Shown: piece after piece, positions 49,498-60,622 of the stretch
Layout of the letters: the number at the start of each line of letters is the position of its first letter
Position numbering within the stretch: the stretch's first letter is position 1
Assembly: GCF_032925565.1 (NCBI RefSeq)
Contig: NZ_CP136708.1
Coordinates: forward strand, 1,984,001 to 2,048,000
Length of the DNA stretch: 64,000 nt
From: Alteromonas sp. CI.11.F.A3
GTDB lineage: Bacteria > Pseudomonadota > Gammaproteobacteria > Enterobacterales > Alteromonadaceae
Direction: 5' to 3'
Notes under the pieces: model-generated
Databases searched by the model: none
What the model was told of the DNA's origin: nothing
The model's input: only the letters and a program-made list of their open reading frames with translations
Made by a program: the position numbers and the translations under genes

Positions 49498-49553
49498 ATA
49501 TAAGATTAAATTAATATCTTTATAAATCAACAATATTACTGTGATTCGACGCA

Positions 49554-49582
49554 AGAGGCTGCCATCCGGCAGCCTCTTTTTT
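49554..49582 (+). terminator. Rho-independent terminator of the M1 peptidase gene
   Basis: AGAGGCTGCC and GGCAGCCTCT form a perfect 10-bp stem with a 4-nt loop and a following T-run. Confidence 0.95.
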
Positions 49583-49843: not shown

Positions 49844-52800
49844 ATGGCACAACTGGGTAAACAAGGGCGAGCGAAGTTGAGTAAGTCAGCTTTGTGCGTA
49901 AAATTAATATTGGGTAGTGTGCTAACTCTGCCACTTTCTTTTAACGCTTTATCAGATGTAATTTGGGAAGAGAACTTCGACGCAGCCGCATTAGACGGCA
50001 AGGGAGCCGTTGGAGGCGACACAGTTACTATCGATATGGATGGTGTATCTCGCTGGAGTATTGATGTTTCAGATGCTGATTTAACGGCGGCTTCTGATTG
50101 GTTTAAAGTCGATGGCGGTCAATTAAGTGCTCGTGATGTAGATGGCGAAGCAGTGTGGTTGTCTGAAGTTATTGTCGTAAACGGCTTGACCGACTTGCAG
50201 CTTGATGTCGAAGTATCAGAAAGTGGTACGCAAGAAGACTTAGATTATGTTGATGTGATGTACTCAGTTGATGGTGGAGAGTTTGTCTTAGTCACTAATA
50301 CATTGGGTACAGACACTCATACTCTGGTAGATGACTACACTGGTATAACCGTTAATTCTGCTATTCCTGATGCAAGCACGGTTCAAATAAAACTCGCTAT
50401 GAAGAACAATGCTGGGACAGAATCTCACTTTGTAAACAGCGTTGTTTTATCAGGCTCAACTGGCTCAGAAGACGGCGGTAGTGAAGGAGAAGGCGGCGAT
50501 GATGGTGAAGTATCTGACGACACACTTCGTACGTTAACCGAAAGTTGCTTTAACTGCCCTGATTTAACTGCGGTTAAATTACCCAGCGAATATGTTGAGG
50601 CTGATTATTATGCGCAGCTTGATACCGCAATAACGAACAATGAAAGCGCTGAAACACTTAAAGCGCTGGCACAAAATATTATCTCGCTAGACCACCATCA
50701 GCTTTCTTATTCAGAAGCATGGACTGCCCTTACCGATACCGATCAAGACCCAGCCAACCCAGACAATGTAGTTTTGTTCTACATGGGAACGTCGTTAGCT
50801 AAATTTAGTAACGGTAGCGGTACCCAAAGCAGCAACCAAGATAACTGGAACAGAGAACACGTTTGGGCAAACAGCCATGGTTTCTCTAGCAATAGCCTTG
50901 CAGCCTACACCGATATTCATCACCTTCGGCCAACCGATATTTCGGTAAATGGTTCTCGGGGTAATTTAGACTTTGATGAAAGCGATGGCGAATTATCGGA
51001 AGCGCCAGCGAACAGCATTGATAGTGACTCTTTTGAGCCTCGTGATTCAGTAAAAGGCGATGTAGCGCGCGCTATGTTTTACATGGACGTACGTTACGAT
51101 GGAAGCGATACCAGTGAATCGGAAGAAGATTTGGTATTGGTTGACCGTTTAACCAGCACTGACGAAGCGGCTCATGGCAAGCTTTGCGTATTGTTGCAGT
51201 GGCATGAAAGCGATCCAGTGGATGAATTCGAGGAAGAACGAAACAGTAAAGTTTTCGAATTCCAAGGTAACCGTAACCCGTTCATTGATAAGCCTGAGCT
51301 TGCTTCACTAATTTTCAATGCAAGTTGTGATGGCAGTGACGCTGGTGATTCAGATGGCGGTGGTTCAGACGGTGGTGATACAGGCGGTTCAGACGGTGGT
51401 GACTCAGATGGAGACACTACGGACGGAAGCACAGGTTCAGGGCATGCAGTATTCATTTCTGAATACATTGAAGGCAGTAGCTTCAGCAAGGCCGTTGAAA
51501 TTTATAATGGTTCTACAGAAGCCGTAGATTTAAGTAACTATAAACTTAAGCTGCTTTCAAACGGCGCAACCGCAGTAGGTGATGAGAAAGTACTAGCGCT
51601 TAGCGGCACATTAGCGTCTGGTGCCGTGGCTACCTTTAGTCATGAGAGCGCTGATGACGCACTGACAACAGGTTCAACGCTAAGTAGCTTTGTGATGAAC
51701 TTCAATGGTGATGATTACATCGAGCTAAGTTACGGCGATGTGACTATTGATGCTGTGGGTACGTTTGGGGTAAAAACTAACTGGGGTAAAGATGTAACCC
51801 TAGTGCGTAAAGCTTCTATTACCGAAGGTAATGCAACCCGCAACCCCGCTTTCGATCCCACTAGCGAATGGGATAGTTACAGCCAAAACACCTTCGATTA
51901 TTTTGGTTCTCACAACGGTAGTGTAGTAGAACCTACAGATCCAACCGACCCAACTGATCCGACAGACCCTGTTGATCCAGTTGACCCAGTCGATCCGGTA
52001 GACCCAACGGTTGAATTGGTACTTATCAGTGAACTGCAGGGTGACGGTGATGCTTCACCATTGGCTGACACAACCGTGATTATTGAAGCGGTTGTGACTA
52101 AGGTAGCTGAAGATTTATCTGGTTTCTTCGTTCAAGAAGAAGCGGCTGACTCTGATGGTAACGATGCAACATCTGAAGGTGTGTTTGTGTATGCAACTTC
52201 GCTTGATACTTACCCTGGGGTAGGTGATTTAGTGCGCATGCAAGGTGATGTAGTTGAGTATAACGACTTAACTGAGTTTGTATTATCAGGTGAAGTTGAA
52301 GTATTAGGTGCGGGCGGCAGTGTGTTATACACCGAACTTAGCATGCCATTTAGTGCTGATACTAACCTTGAAGCCTATGAAGGTATGCAAATTACCTTTA
52401 CACAATCTTTGTTAGTGAATGATGTGTACAACCTAGGCCGTTACGGTCAGTTTAACGTGGGTTCTGAACGCGTGATGATCCCCACTAACCAATATCCTGC
52501 GGGTTCTGCTGGCGCGCTAGCATTAGCGGAAGAAAATGCCCTTAATACGTTATTGGTAGATGATGCTTCAAACAGCCAAAACCTAGATGGTATTCCATTC
52601 CCAGTAGGTGGGCTAACTCACACCAATCCACTTCGCCTAGGCGATACGGTTGAAAACCTAACAGGTGTCATGCATTACTCGTTTGGCGAGTACCAATTAT
52701 TGCCTGTAACCGACCTAGAGTTAGTACGCACAAATGCACGTACAGCTTACCCATTAATCGGCTTAACTGGCGATGTGAAAGTGGCTAGCTTTAACGTACT

Positions 52801-53893
52801 TAACTATTTCGATGGACCAGACTTCCCGACGTCTCGCGGTGCCACCAATGAATTTGAATTGGTACGCCAAGAAGCAAAAATTGTTGCAGCATTAGCGGCA
52901 ATGGACGCAGATGTTGTTGGTCTTGTAGAAGTTGAAAATGATGGGCACGGTGAAGATTCTGCTATTGCAACGCTAACTGCAGCGGTAAATGCTGAAATGG
53001 GCGGCGATGTTTATAGCTATGTGTCAATTGCTGAAGCGTTGGGTACTGATGAAATTGCAGTAGGCATGATTTATAAGCCTGCAGTAGTTACACCATTTGG
53101 TAATGCAGTGACGTCGTCTGAAACACCGTTTGACTATGGTAACCGTCAACCACTTCTTCAATCGTTTACAGTGAACGCCAATGGTGAAGCATTTACTCTT
53201 GCCGTAAACCACTTTAAATCGAAAGGAAGCTGTTCTAGCGCTACAGGCGATAATGCCGATTCAGGTGATGGCCAAGGCTGTTGGAACGCATTGCGTACCG
53301 ATGCGGCAAACGGCTTGGTTGCTATTGTAGAAAACAACAGCGATACCTTGTCTGACCGCTTGTTGATTATGGGCGATTTGAACGCGTATGCCGCAGAGGA
53401 GCCTATTTTGGCCCTTGAAAGTGCAGGCTATACCAACCTAGTTAACACCTTTGGTGGCGACTCGGCGTACTCATACACCTTTGATGGCGAGCTAGGTTAC
53501 CTAGACCATGCACTATCAAGCCCTAGCTTAACCGAATATGTGGTTGATGCGACGGTATGGCACATTAACTCAGATGAGCCTCGAGTGTTTGATTACAACG
53601 AAGAGTTTAAAACGGACGCGCAAATCACCGATTATTATGGTGCTGATGCGTATCGCTCTTCAGACCACGACCCAGTATTGGTAGTACTTAACTTCCCAGA
53701 TGCGGTTCAACCTGGTGATTTTGATGGCGACAACGACGTAGACTACAACGACATTATGGCGTTCTACGGCTTGTTCTTATCAGGTGGCGCGAACGATTTG
53801 GCAAATGATTTTAATAACGATGGCGCGGTGAGTTTTTACGATATCAACGCCTTGATGGCCATGTGTACCCGCGCTGGCTGTGCAGTAGAATAA
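49844..53893 (+). CDS. Giant secreted protein with endonuclease I and ExeM-type nuclease domains and C-terminal dockerin
   Basis: About 1349 residues (a GTG at 49829 would add five). Signal peptide to about residue 38. Residues 40-210 form a beta-sandwich. A Gly/Asp/Glu linker leads to an endonuclease I (EndA) domain at about 230-500 with WNREHVWANSHGF and DIHHLRPTD. A second Gly/Asp linker precedes a lamin-tail domain (about 535-690; VFISEYIEGSS, AVEIYNGS). A PTDP/VDP repeat linker (about 700-724) leads to an OB-fold-like region and an exonuclease/endonuclease/phosphatase domain (about 975-1285; VASFNVLNY, IMGDLNAY, SSDHDPVLV). The last 60 residues are a two-repeat dockerin: DFDGDNDVDYND and DFNNDGAVSFYD. 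It should degrade extracellular DNA. The dockerin replaces the GlyGly-CTERM tail of Shewanella ExeM. Confidence 0.88.
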   Translation: MAQLGKQGRAKLSKSALCVKLILGSVLTLPLSFNALSDVIWEENFDAAALDGKGAVGGDTVTIDMDGVSRWSIDVSDADLTAASDWFKVDGGQLSARDVDGEAVWLSEVIVVNGLTDLQLDVEVSESGTQEDLDYVDVMYSVDGGEFVLVTNTLGTDTHTLVDDYTGITVNSAIPDASTVQIKLAMKNNAGTESHFVNSVVLSGSTGSEDGGSEGEGGDDGEVSDDTLRTLTESCFNCPDLTAVKLPSEYVEADYYAQLDTAITNNESAETLKALAQNIISLDHHQLSYSEAWTALTDTDQDPANPDNVVLFYMGTSLAKFSNGSGTQSSNQDNWNREHVWANSHGFSSNSLAAYTDIHHLRPTDISVNGSRGNLDFDESDGELSEAPANSIDSDSFEPRDSVKGDVARAMFYMDVRYDGSDTSESEEDLVLVDRLTSTDEAAHGKLCVLLQWHESDPVDEFEEERNSKVFEFQGNRNPFIDKPELASLIFNASCDGSDAGDSDGGGSDGGDTGGSDGGDSDGDTTDGSTGSGHAVFISEYIEGSSFSKAVEIYNGSTEAVDLSNYKLKLLSNGATAVGDEKVLALSGTLASGAVATFSHESADDALTTGSTLSSFVMNFNGDDYIELSYGDVTIDAVGTFGVKTNWGKDVTLVRKASITEGNATRNPAFDPTSEWDSYSQNTFDYFGSHNGSVVEPTDPTDPTDPTDPVDPVDPVDPVDPTVELVLISELQGDGDASPLADTTVIIEAVVTKVAEDLSGFFVQEEAADSDGNDATSEGVFVYATSLDTYPGVGDLVRMQGDVVEYNDLTEFVLSGEVEVLGAGGSVLYTELSMPFSADTNLEAYEGMQITFTQSLLVNDVYNLGRYGQFNVGSERVMIPTNQYPAGSAGALALAEENALNTLLVDDASNSQNLDGIPFPVGGLTHTNPLRLGDTVENLTGVMHYSFGEYQLLPVTDLELVRTNARTAYPLIGLTGDVKVASFNVLNYFDGPDFPTSRGATNEFELVRQEAKIVAALAAMDADVVGLVEVENDGHGEDSAIATLTAAVNAEMGGDVYSYVSIAEALGTDEIAVGMIYKPAVVTPFGNAVTSSETPFDYGNRQPLLQSFTVNANGEAFTLAVNHFKSKGSCSSATGDNADSGDGQGCWNALRTDAANGLVAIVENNSDTLSDRLLIMGDLNAYAAEEPILALESAGYTNLVNTFGGDSAYSYTFDGELGYLDHALSSPSLTEYVVDATVWHINSDEPRVFDYNEEFKTDAQITDYYGADAYRSSDHDPVLVVLNFPDAVQPGDFDGDNDVDYNDIMAFYGLFLSGGANDLANDFNNDGAVSFYDINALMAMCTRAGCAVE
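51330..51440 (+). repeat. Gly/Asp/Ser-rich repeat linker in the nuclease
   Basis: Repeated GGTGGTTCAGACGGTGG-like words encode a DGGSDGGD-type linker between the endonuclease I and lamin-tail domains. It is acidic, probably flexible and calcium binding. Confidence 0.8.
51931..52011 (+). repeat. PTDP/VDP tripeptide-repeat linker
   Basis: Tandem 9-bp codon repeats (GAC/GAT CCA/CCG ACC/GTT) encode PTD repeated four times followed by PVD repeated four times. The stiff, acidic linker separates the lamin-tail domain from the ExeM-type nuclease half. Confidence 0.9.
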
Positions 53894-53907
53894 GTAGGAA
53901 TTAGAAA

Positions 53908-54501
53908 ATGAAAAAATTTATTATTGGTTTATTTGCATTAGTTGGTTTTAGTGCTCAAGCAGCGGTTATTAACATTAGTACTGACCAAGCATCGTATAGC
54001 GTGGGTGATACTGTTACGGCTACTGTTAATCTAGATGTAAATGCATTCTTAGCATTGAGTGGAACTCTACCTATAATCGGCTTAGAAAACATTTTTACAT
54101 ATGATCCGATAAGCTTAACTTTTACAGGCGGTTCTGTAACTTTTGGTGACAGTTCAGGTTTTACCTTCTTTGATGGGCTGCTCCCCGGTGTTCCAGGAAT
54201 GCTAGCAGTGTCTTCAGTTGGTTTCTTTCCGCTTTCTTCAATGTTGGAAATTTTAGAGGATCAGCAATCTCTTGCTGGAAGCTTAGATTTATACACGTTG
54301 AATTTTTCAGCAGTAAGCGCTGTGAACGACTTGGCATTCGGTGTTAGTGGTACTGTTCTTAATTCTAATGGCGTACCGTTACAGGCGACGACTTCTTCAT
54401 CGCAGTTTTCAATTACTGAAGTACCAGCACCAAGCACCGGTGTCTTAGCACTACTTGCTTGCTTCGGTATGATGGTATCGCGGGTTAAGGTTCGTCGCTA
54501 A
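53908..54501 (+). CDS. Cohesin-like exported protein with PEP-CTERM-like anchor
   Basis: 197 residues. Signal peptide MKKFIIGLFALVGFSAQA. The mature domain starts with ISTDQASYSVGDTVTATVNL and continues with LENIFTYDPISLTFTGGSV, then YTLNFSAVSA. This is the strand pattern and the 'GDTVT ... YDP..L.F' signature of cohesin and cohesin-like domains. The C-terminus VPAPSTGVLALLACFGMMVSRVKVRR resembles a PEP-CTERM sorting signal: a Pro-containing motif, a hydrophobic helix and a basic tail, with Ala instead of Glu. The gene begins 14 bp after the stop of the dockerin nuclease with an AGGAATTAG ribosome site. The product probably tethers that nuclease at the surface (inference). Confidence 0.75.
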   Translation: MKKFIIGLFALVGFSAQAAVINISTDQASYSVGDTVTATVNLDVNAFLALSGTLPIIGLENIFTYDPISLTFTGGSVTFGDSSGFTFFDGLLPGVPGMLAVSSVGFFPLSSMLEILEDQQSLAGSLDLYTLNFSAVSAVNDLAFGVSGTVLNSNGVPLQATTSSSQFSITEVPAPSTGVLALLACFGMMVSRVKVRR

Positions 54502-54553: not shown

Positions 54554-54580
54554 AAAACCCAGCATCTGCTGGGTTTTTTA
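54554..54580 (+). terminator. Rho-independent terminator of the nuclease-cohesin operon
   Basis: AAACCCAGCA and TGCTGGGTTT form a 10-bp stem around a 2-nt loop, followed by a T-run. Confidence 0.93.
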
Positions 54581-57950: not shown

Positions 57951-59129
57951 TTACATTGGGTGCCAGTTTTGTAAAATAGCTGCTTTATTGTAAAAGAGGC
58001 TTTCTACGTCAGTAAGGGTAGGGCGTGCTTCGTTCTCAAGTGCGCCAGGGCCATGGCTCTTAAATTCAGCAAACCTAGCATCGGTAAGCGGACTAAAATA
58101 TTTTTTACTCCCTTCCTTTGTCTTACCCGACATGCTACTCCAACCGCTTGTTGAAATGTGGGTGTCCATATAGGTGTTGATATATAGTGAGTGTCCAATA
58201 GCGTAAGGTGACGCATACTTTCCATCTGTAAAAGCGGTAGTAGGATGCCAAGGGCGGCCAAGGGCAACGGAATGGTTAGGTACACCGGCTTCACGAGCCA
58301 AGTTGCAATTAAAAAATACAAATCCAAATGGCCGAGTGTTAAGGGTGCTTGGCGCCGTTATATAGCCTGTAACGCCTTTCCCAGTATGTCGTTTTCGTGA
58401 AACAATATCTACGCTATCGAAAAAAGCGGTGCCACCACCGAAGATAAAATCAATATGTCCTGCCACTAAGCCACCTTTCATGTAGGCTCTGTTTCCTTTG
58501 AGATAAAGTGTATCTTGATAGCCCCACAGCTCGATATTATCTAAAAGCGTTTTATCTGCGGTTACTGCGGTTTTTAACGCGACCGCTTGAGTCCCTGATA
58601 CGCGATTAAGATCATCTTTTGCGCGAATTTCATTCGCAGGATAATCAAAGCTATTCAATATGCTTAGGTTTGAAAGGTGAACGTTTGATGCGGTTATCTC
58701 GACGGTGGCGGTTCTTCGAGTGCCAAAAACCTCATCGGTATCTGGATGTATTACCTGACCAGCATACCGAGAAAAGACGATTTTAGTTGTCTTTCTTTCT
58801 AAGCCTCTAAGGTGAACGTTAGGCGTTTGAATTACTACCGATTCCTGATAAATGCCAGGTTGAACTTCAATGACCCACATCCCAGAATGCTGGGTAGGAA
58901 TGGCGTTAATTGCATCAGTTACCCGCGTGTATTGTGGAAGGGGGGAATCCAGTGTGACTTGGCTAACAAGCGCATTTGCTTCGGGTTTTTGCGTTGCTTC
59001 TGCGCAACTCATAAAACATAAAAAAAACAGGGCCAAGCGCTTTTGTGAGAAAGCGCTAGCTATATAAAATGCTAACTGAATCCGCTCCTGACATTTACCT
59101 TCAATTATTACGCGTAGCCGTTTAAGCAT
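57951..59129 (-). CDS. Pectin methylesterase (CE8)
   Basis: 392 residues from ATG 59129, which overlaps the GH28 stop by 8 bp; upstream in-frame starts lie inside that gene. A signal-like segment LALFFLCFMSCAEA may be a lipobox. The catalytic motifs are GTQAVALKTAVTADK, GYQDTLYLK (Asp proton donor) and AGHIDFIFGGGTAF (nucleophile Asp), and ALGRPWHPT near the end is the conserved RPW motif. The parallel beta-helix enzyme removes methyl esters from homogalacturonan, preparing it for the GH28 enzyme. Last gene of the pectin operon. Confidence 0.93.
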   Translation of the reverse strand: MLKRLRVIIEGKCQERIQLAFYIASAFSQKRLALFFLCFMSCAEATQKPEANALVSQVTLDSPLPQYTRVTDAINAIPTQHSGMWVIEVQPGIYQESVVIQTPNVHLRGLERKTTKIVFSRYAGQVIHPDTDEVFGTRRTATVEITASNVHLSNLSILNSFDYPANEIRAKDDLNRVSGTQAVALKTAVTADKTLLDNIELWGYQDTLYLKGNRAYMKGGLVAGHIDFIFGGGTAFFDSVDIVSRKRHTGKGVTGYITAPSTLNTRPFGFVFFNCNLAREAGVPNHSVALGRPWHPTTAFTDGKYASPYAIGHSLYINTYMDTHISTSGWSSMSGKTKEGSKKYFSPLTDARFAEFKSHGPGALENEARPTLTDVESLFYNKAAILQNWHPM

Positions 59130-60585
59130 CACGCAATCCCACTTGGTTTCCTGCAATGACAATATTAGATGTCTGTATTGCCTCCACGTTCTCAATGACA
59201 GATGGTTTTTCAACAGAGGCAATAGAAATGTCGTGTAGGGACAACCCTGTAATTGGGGTATGATCATAGCCTCTTAGCATAAAGGCTCGGTCTGCGCGTT
59301 TTACTGTCATATGCTCTACTGTAATTCCCTCTAGTTTCGGTGGGAAATTTCCAGCATCTCCCTCTTCATAAAAGAAGTTAACTACTATTGCGTCTTTTAC
59401 ATCGCCAATTGAGATATGCCGATAATTCAGATTTTTAAGATGACCGCCTCGTATACTGTTGGTTTTAATTCGTATACCTCTGTCTAAGTTAGGGCTACTC
59501 ATCACGCAGCGTTGTGCATAAAGGTTACGAACCCCGCCGGAAATCTCACTCCCTATGACTATCCCGCCGTGACCGGCTTTCATTTCGCAATCTTCTATAA
59601 TGATGTTTTCACTCGGTTGATTTAGCCGTCGGCCGTCTGCATTTCGTCCCGATTTGATGGCAATACAATCATCACCAGTGTCAAAAACACAAGATTGTAT
59701 GAGAACATCAGTACAGCTTTCTGGATCACACCCATCTGAATTAGGGCCAAAACTTTGGCAGTGAATATTGCTTACCGTCACATTTTTACATAACACGGGA
59801 TTAACTAACCAAAAGGGAGAGCGCAGTATGGTGACTCCCTCAATTAATACGTTTTCACACAGGTAAGGTTGAATAAAAGGAGGGCGAAGATAGTTTTCGT
59901 CAAATACCCGTTCAGAAACAGGCGTGCCATCTTCAACCATAACTTGGAGTGTATCTCTGGTGTACTTTTGATTCTCAACGGCATGATCGCCCCATTCAGA
60001 AGTTTTCCACTTTCCTTTCCAAGGCCACCAATTATCGGCAGAAGCCCCGCCATCTAAAGTGCCTTGACCCGTAATGGCAATATTCTTCTGCTTGAAAGCA
60101 TAAATCAAAGGGGAGTAGCCCATTAATTCCATGCCTTCCCAGCGGGTGTGTACATAGGGCTTGTAGTGTTGACTATCAGTAGAAAAGTGAAGCGTGGCTC
60201 CCTCTTCAATATGCAGATTAATATTAGATTTTAAGTGAATGGGCCCTTTGCAAAAAAACTCCCCTTTGGGCACCACGACCTTACCCCCCCCTATAGATAC
60301 GAGATGCGCGATAGCCGCATTGAGCGCGGGTAGGCTATCGCTATGTAGTGCATTGGGTAAGGCGCCAAACTGCTCAATGAACACGGTATTATTGGCAAAG
60401 GTGGGCCTAACTACACGGTCTCGGATTAACTGTGCCTCTTTATCCCACTGTGCTTGGCTTCTTGTCGCGTTTGAGGGCGTACTTGTAGCTGATATAGAGC
60501 AACCTGCAGAAAATGGGATAACAGGGGATAACGTAGCGGCCAGCCCTGCTTTTAAAAGATGACGGCGGTGTCTATTTAATGTCAT
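59122..60585 (-). CDS. Polygalacturonase-like glycoside hydrolase family 28
   Basis: 487 residues from the ATG at 60585 (CGGAG ribosome site; a start at 60606 is less likely). The N-terminus RHRRHLLKAGLAATLSPVIPFSAGC is a twin-arginine-like lipoprotein signal. Catalytic motifs of GH28 are present in order: NSDGCDPESC (about 275-284), GDDCIAIKSG (about 297-306), GHGGIVIGSE (about 327-336) and RGIRIKTN (about 355-362). The enzyme hydrolyses galacturonan or rhamnogalacturonan linkages, probably from the periplasm or the outer membrane. It overlaps the pectin methylesterase gene by 8 bp. Confidence 0.93.
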   Translation of the reverse strand: MTLNRHRRHLLKAGLAATLSPVIPFSAGCSISATSTPSNATRSQAQWDKEAQLIRDRVVRPTFANNTVFIEQFGALPNALHSDSLPALNAAIAHLVSIGGGKVVVPKGEFFCKGPIHLKSNINLHIEEGATLHFSTDSQHYKPYVHTRWEGMELMGYSPLIYAFKQKNIAITGQGTLDGGASADNWWPWKGKWKTSEWGDHAVENQKYTRDTLQVMVEDGTPVSERVFDENYLRPPFIQPYLCENVLIEGVTILRSPFWLVNPVLCKNVTVSNIHCQSFGPNSDGCDPESCTDVLIQSCVFDTGDDCIAIKSGRNADGRRLNQPSENIIIEDCEMKAGHGGIVIGSEISGGVRNLYAQRCVMSSPNLDRGIRIKTNSIRGGHLKNLNYRHISIGDVKDAIVVNFFYEEGDAGNFPPKLEGITVEHMTVKRADRAFMLRGYDHTPITGLSLHDISIASVEKPSVIENVEAIQTSNIVIAGNQVGLRDA

Positions 60586-60622
60586 AAAAACTCCGTGGCG
60601 GAACACTTCTCAATGATTAGAA

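Follow-up and report, generated by a model that had tools for sequence, protein, structure and literature searches.

The DNA analysed here, hereafter the window, is a 64,000-nucleotide stretch from the complete, 4.66 Mb genome of Alteromonas sp. CI.11.F.A3 (contig NZ_CP136708.1). It harbors two adjacent genes that resemble the two halves of a cohesin-dockerin system: the first encodes a large nuclease that ends in a dockerin domain, and the second a small protein (P0002) with a signal peptide, a single cohesin-like β-sandwich and a PEP-CTERM-like tail (Table 1). Cohesin-dockerin assembly is best known from the cellulosomes of anaerobic Firmicutes. The nuclease gene may alternatively start at an upstream GTG (49829), which would lengthen the product from the 1349 residues encoded from ATG 49844 to 1354. 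Its product scores well above the cut-off of the ExeM/NucH extracellular endonuclease family and does not reach that of the GlyGly-CTERM form of ExeM (NF033680, 420.7 bits vs 1300 needed), its tail being a dockerin. Endonuclease I and ExeM/NucH, two nuclease domains that are unrelated to each other, sit on this single polypeptide. The second gene starts 14 base pairs (bp) past the stop codon of the first, with an AGGA 8 nucleotides ahead of its ATG.

Table 1. Features of the nuclease-cohesin locus; positions are those of the window, residues those of the nuclease or, for the signal peptide, of P0002.
Feature	Position	Strand	Evidence
Multi-domain nuclease, secreted, 1349 residues	49844..53893	+	NF033681 622.9 bits (cut-off 300), PF04231 149.9 bits, PF00932 49.6 bits
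Endonuclease I domain	residues 270-485		PF04231 149.9 bits
Lamin-tail domain	residues 533-639		PF00932 49.6 bits
ExeM/NucH nuclease domain	residues 747-1284		NF033681 622.9 bits, above cut-off 300
Dockerin domain, two F-hand repeats then CTRxxC tail	residues 1290-1349; 53711..53890	+	PF00404, profile A5, invariant residues
Calcium-type loop 1, DFDGDNDVDYND	53717..53752	+	Read directly, in frame
Calcium-type loop 2, DFNNDGAVSFYD	53807..53842	+	Read directly, in frame; varies among close relatives
Single-cohesin protein (P0002), 197 residues: signal peptide, sandwich, PEP-CTERM-like tail	53908..54501	+	AlphaFold2, Foldseek, VIA-align, conserved adjacency
Predicted signal peptide, residues 1-19	53908..53964	+	Hydrophobic N-terminal helix in model, conserved start
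Cohesin body, hypervariable	53965..54415	+	Nucleotide comparison with the L004 allele
PEP-CTERM-like tail: VPAPST motif, hydrophobic helix, Arg/Lys cluster	54418..54498	+	Read directly; PF07589 in relatives
Terminator-like hairpin with T-run, 3′ of the second gene	54554..54577	+	Pattern scan

An initial annotation, made from the sequence alone, had described two calcium loops at the 3′ end of the nuclease gene, a cohesin-like protein encoded 14 bp later and a PEP-CTERM-like signal on the latter, and all three were borne out. Both loops lie in frame, carry Asp or Asn at positions 1, 3, 5 and 12, as in the F-hand repeats of type I dockerins, and are followed by a CTRAGC tail that ends the protein. 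In contrast, the Pfam searches on the single proteins that had been proposed as a check did not reach the cut-offs. PF00404 (Dockerin_1) stays below its cut-off of 22.9 bits both for the whole nuclease (15.5 bits, E 0.02) and for the isolated 60-residue dockerin (21.7 bits), and PF00963 (cohesin) does not match P0002. For the dockerin, the relatives provide what the single protein does not: in an alignment of 41 dockerin tails, every one is hit by PF00404 at E ≤1 (best 1.3e-10), relatives such as L108 can exceed the cut-off (34.8 bits), and six loop Asp residues and a Cys pair are invariant across the 41 rows. The dockerin profile A5 matches solved dockerins (e. g. 2y3n_B, E 4.5e-8), with another EF-hand protein as its top match (2lan_A, E 3.2e-8). 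As judged by these comparisons, the dockerin identity of the nuclease tail is not a chance match once relatives are included. An AlphaFold2 model of the dockerin was set aside (predicted local distance difference test (pLDDT) 49.7, 3 sequences). A second PF00404 match in the same genome (L003) was dismissed as chance, the open reading frame (ORF) resembling an AMP-forming ligase by eye.

The assignment of P0002 follows a similar pattern. Cohesins are the top matches of its AlphaFold2 model (pLDDT 69.3, predicted template modelling score 0.61) in both Foldseek and VIA-align, the best structural match being to non-cellulosomal cohesins of Clostridium perfringens glycoside hydrolases (2vo8, 2jh2, 2w1n). 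PF00963 matches 4 of 24 aligned cohesin rows (best E 4.4e-4) and is passed by the partner gene in L129 (24.4 bits vs a cut-off of 24.1), while the 24-row profile matches solved cohesins (3l8q, E 8.4e-9, sum over two domains). The C-terminus of P0002, VPAPSTGVLALLACFGMMVSRVKVRR, shows the tripartite organization of PEP-CTERM tails. PF07589 does not match P0002, whose motif reads VPAPST, and matches 15 of the 24 aligned rows (best E 1.5e-4). A single exosortase (PF09721, 134.6 bits) is encoded in the genome behind an ORF that resembles a sugar transferase by eye. Since an exosortase is present in all 59 genomes sampled from the genus, it permits processing of the tail without proving it. Named records with relatives of the second gene come from Alteromonas, including A. 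stellipolaris, with one Paraglaciecola among the more distant ones, and a search of plasmid records returned none with P0002.

Conservation of the adjacency was likewise confirmed. In the 59 Alteromonas genomes, dockerin proteins were counted at E 1e-7 or better (n=70), which leaves out EF-hand matches of about 400 residues (E 5e-5 to 7e-4). Relatives of P0002 occur in 26 of the genomes, in each case directly behind a dockerin-tailed ExeM nuclease, and eight further cohesin partners behind other dockerin-tailed ExeM genes were found by reading. When a profile of 32 nuclease-neighbour cohesins (A3) was run on the same genomes, each of the 49 best matches (E ≤9.5e-10) lay no more than 4.6 kb from a dockerin domain encoded on the same strand. 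Thirty-five of these are ExeM neighbours, and the other 14 belong to second-site loci, none of which had contributed to the profile and all of which adjoin dockerin genes (12 neighbourhoods read, 2 judged by coordinates). For the five matches ranked next (E 2e-9 to 7e-7), the coordinates show no dockerin nearby, and these matches were attributed to the shared PEP-CTERM tail; two of them (L118, L119) and three still weaker ones (L120-L122) were read. Altogether, an adjacent single-cohesin gene is found beside 51 of the 70 dockerin proteins, in 39 genomes, including two (L129, L130) located via PF00963 and reading instead of A3. The general, externally built PF00963 model gives 12 matches at E ≤0.1, seven of which adjoin dockerin genes, among them the sole match above the cut-off. 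The several cohesins of a cellulosomal scaffoldin were not found: the genome of the window has one cohesin-profile match (a PF00963 match at E 0.128 has stops inside and was rejected as chance), and across the genus none of the PF00963 matches at E ≤0.1 hints at a scaffold with several cohesins.

Outside the genus, a family sample of 147 genomes contains such dockerins in 77 genomes and 35 of 52 genera, and in an order sample 23 of 295 genomes gave a match, 17 of them from the same family. From the best-scoring 80 of 133 listed places, the dockerin ORF was located by script in 79, and partners were called at E below 1e-5 with a body-only cohesin profile that excludes signal and tail. An adjacent single-cohesin gene is present at 63 of the 79 loci (60 distinct genes), 59 times downstream with a median gap of 31 bp and four times upstream. 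Besides ExeM, the partners comprise porphyranase-type enzymes (which we take to be GH86), BNR_4, thermolysin-type M4, VWA and PKD-repeat proteins, subtilases (S8), collagenases (M9), M43 metalloproteases, GH98 and F5/8C proteins; no cellulase is among the partner proteins scanned. Among the 79 loci, those with and without a cohesin number 40 and 11 for ExeM, 4 and 2 for the porphyranase type, 4 and 1 for BNR_4, 4 and 0 for L129-like proteins, and 11 and 2 for the remainder. The initial annotation had envisaged a device for a DNA nuclease. The gene pair itself is confirmed, but its restriction to nucleases proved too narrow, since predicted proteases and enzymes that degrade polysaccharides have the same kind of partner. 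The pair in the window is probably one instance of a module that Alteromonadaceae use for large secreted enzymes, with DNA, protein and polysaccharide as the predicted substrates.

The two domains also co-vary. Across 72 distinct ExeM pairs, the distances among dockerins correlate with those among cohesins once nuclease distance is removed (partial r 0.346, reached in 0 of 5000 permutations), both within the genus (0.338, n=33) and in other genera (0.393, n=39). As a control, seventeen 60-residue segments of the nuclease, which as parts of enzyme domains may evolve under other constraints, gave a mean of 0.046 (standard deviation 0.065) and a maximum of 0.136, with negative values for the segments closest to the dockerin. 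The co-variation thus does not seem to be explained by shared history or by linkage to the end of the nuclease. Repeat 2 adds more to it (0.332) than repeat 1 (0.220), and leaving out six pairs with a nuclease piece of <250 residues changes little (0.336, 0 of 5000; segments ≤0.132).

Taken together, the two genes probably encode an enzyme-specific cohesin-dockerin pair, in which an exosortase-sorted cohesin retains the nuclease at the cell surface or in the matrix. The nuclease would be secreted with its presumably calcium-dependent dockerin attached, while the monovalent cohesin would cross the envelope by means of its signal peptide and PEP-CTERM-like tail, the latter being processed by the single exosortase. 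Outside the cell, the cohesin could then capture the dockerin, an interaction to which adjacency and co-variation point only indirectly. The nuclease would in this way be held on the outer surface or within the exopolysaccharide matrix, conceivably to the benefit of the cell, with one or two enzymes served per anchor gene.

Two sets of observations weigh against such a pair. First, variation among cohesin alleles greatly exceeds that of the dockerin. Compared with the L004 allele, which is listed as the same species, the cohesin body is 48% identical at the nucleotide level, while the nuclease and the downstream gene reach 97% and 98%. Likewise, six nucleases (L006-L011) are near-identical (96-99%, C-terminal part compared), yet their cohesin bodies fall into three classes that are 30-39% identical to each other, with the tail and, except in L011, the signal peptide conserved. 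A strict match between dockerin allele and cohesin allele is contradicted at this close range because L007 and the L008-L010 class have a dockerin repeat-2 motif in common and differ in cohesin class. Second, the initial annotation had named as evidence against itself that relatives might retain the nuclease with its dockerin but not the second gene. This is seen in the genus, where 17 ExeM genes end in a dockerin and have no adjacent cohesin; two other dockerin proteins likewise have none. A C-terminal extension of at least 10 residues is present in 11 of the 17 (L064, L066-L070, L074-L077, L095), and none of the 48 paired tails read in the genus (of 51) has one; it is possibly another sorting signal. 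These extensions follow the CTRxxC tail and are often rich in Ser and Arg. An ExeM tree of 89 rows, from which L095 and 15 no-partner loci with too little sequence or no ExeM motif were left out, needs about 10 changes of partner state, at least five of them on well-supported branches. A weak PF00963 match in a genome with an orphan dockerin (L127) was rejected as the missing receptor, as it is a repetitive putative lipoprotein.

The strongest competing explanation, though an unlikely one, is that dockerins bind cohesins in common, so that the few cohesins of a cell form a shared surface platform akin to a dispersed cellulosome and the adjacency of the genes reflects co-regulation only. This would account for the three sampled loci in which a single cohesin is flanked by two dockerin enzymes (G111, G195 and G105; in G111 the order is ExeM-cohesin-subtilase, L143/L156), for repeat-2 motifs that coincide while the cohesins differ, and for some genomes with three dockerin proteins of this kind. 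However, the cohesin proteins that were read are small, single-domain and encoded beside an enzyme, the PF00963 search points to no multi-cohesin scaffold, and dockerin and cohesin co-vary. Somewhat less probable still is a role of the cohesin-like protein in transport or folding, where it would capture the dockerin in the periplasm, protect the cell from the nuclease or protease and escort the enzyme through the envelope without anchoring it outside. Immediate adjacency and near one-to-one pairing would fit immunity or escort equally well, predicted nucleases and proteases are among the partners, and the founding PEP-CTERM paper itself calls for experiments on localization and processing (PMC1569441). 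Yet porphyranase-like and GH98 partners should presumably not endanger the cell, the 17 unpaired ExeM genes exist without such an escort, and the cohesin has its own sorting tail.

The cohesin body constitutes a hypervariable allelic cassette (53965-54415) between a signal peptide, conserved except in L011, and a conserved tail. It is improbable, although an attractive idea, that this body is a swappable cassette between fixed sorting signals and that mutually exclusive cohesin-dockerin pairs reserve each secreted enzyme for the strain that makes it. In that case, enzymes of other strains would not be captured, and a public good would become a strain-specific property. The idea that the sandwich merely shares the cohesin fold and serves another role, for instance as an adhesin or pilin-like PEP-CTERM matrix protein, with F-hands that only stabilize the enzyme C-terminus, is very unlikely.

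The preferred reading, an enzyme-specific pair, has several partial precedents. Like cellulosomes, the system combines a cohesin with a type I-like dockerin, but one cohesin lies by one or two enzymes in place of a multi-cohesin scaffoldin, and cellulases are missing from the partners scanned. A 2026 study states that no cellulosome system has been described outside the Firmicutes, mentions 78 metagenome-assembled genomes of Bacteroidetes with both domains that need further work, and regards the organization of the C. perfringens cohesins as apparently serving pairwise enzyme contacts, not a scaffold (PMC12997984). In C. perfringens, the glycoside hydrolases themselves carry the cohesin as one of their modules, whereas the Gram-negative host of the present pair makes it separately, as a small protein with a PEP-CTERM-like tail. 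According to a 2017 review, which cites Peer et al. 2009, it is not known what cohesin and dockerin proteins do when they are not part of a cellulosome; the cases covered there, including methanotrophic archaea, share cohesins, dockerins and exosortase/archaeosortase systems in the same genomes, while one-enzyme/one-cohesin gene pairs and a cohesin-borne sorting tail are not described in its sections seen (PMC5244752). The PEP-CTERM/EpsH (exosortase) system offers the same signal peptide, the motif, helix and basic end, and an exosortase gene behind what is, by eye, a sugar-transferase-like ORF. It differs in that the sorted protein here is a cohesin with an identifiable partner and that the motif in the window reads PAP; dockerin, cohesin, Alteromonas and nuclease are unmentioned in the main text of that paper (PMC1569441).

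No literature joining dockerin or cohesin with PEP-CTERM, or a dockerin with an extracellular nuclease and a cohesin, was found in the searches made. Similarly, the arrangement of a separate PEP-CTERM-like single cohesin beside each of many enzyme kinds in a Gram-negative family did not appear in the literature searched, although Peer et al. 2009 may catalogue scattered single genes. The parts are thus known, and within this literature the arrangement is what is new. In these Gram-negative bacteria, cohesin and dockerin recur as a simple two-gene module whose enzymes are predicted to be nucleases, proteases or polysaccharide degraders. The module provides a testable explanation of how such bacteria retain the enzymes they secrete, offers one class of PEP-CTERM-like proteins a concrete job, and suggests that plug-and-socket pairs are a widespread way of keeping secreted enzymes close. 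Moreover, more than 100 natural pairs (51 and 63 dockerins with a partner) are available for work on docking specificity.

The dockerin had been proposed to act instead of the GlyGly-CTERM/rhombosortase route. This holds for the gene in the window and not for its genome, in which a second ExeM (L083) has a GlyGly-CTERM tail (SGGSMG) and a rhombosortase is encoded (173.5 bits, cut-off 84). ExeM of Shewanella oneidensis belongs to the same family with lamin-tail and nuclease domains and ends in GlyGly-CTERM alongside a rhombosortase, while the protein of the window ends in a dockerin and adds the Endonuclease I domain (PMC6085458). Two ExeM paralogues with different tails in one genome thus represent a ready-made controlled comparison. 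A GlyGly tail was found in 13 of 14 shorter-type ExeM loci examined (27 such places were listed), and no same-strand ORF of at least 100 residues lies within 400 bp downstream of any of these 13 genes. Two ExeM-family genes (L057, L094) have neither a dockerin nor a GlyGly tail and no cohesin neighbour.

A few further observations concern dockerin proteins elsewhere and the surroundings of the pair. L161 is a small secreted protein with two tandem dockerins beside one cohesin. L131 and L132 encode dockerin-tailed proteins of about 740-750 residues without a cohesin, next to a conserved gene for about 430 residues whose product has, by eye, a papain-type peptidase-like C-terminus. In the window, hairpins at 49553-49578 and downstream of the second gene flank the pair on both sides, which is suggestive only, because the pattern scan found 4 hairpins vs 4.0 expected in shuffles. 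Farther downstream, minus-strand ORFs at 57951-60606 have a pectinesterase-like and a polygalacturonase-like appearance by eye.
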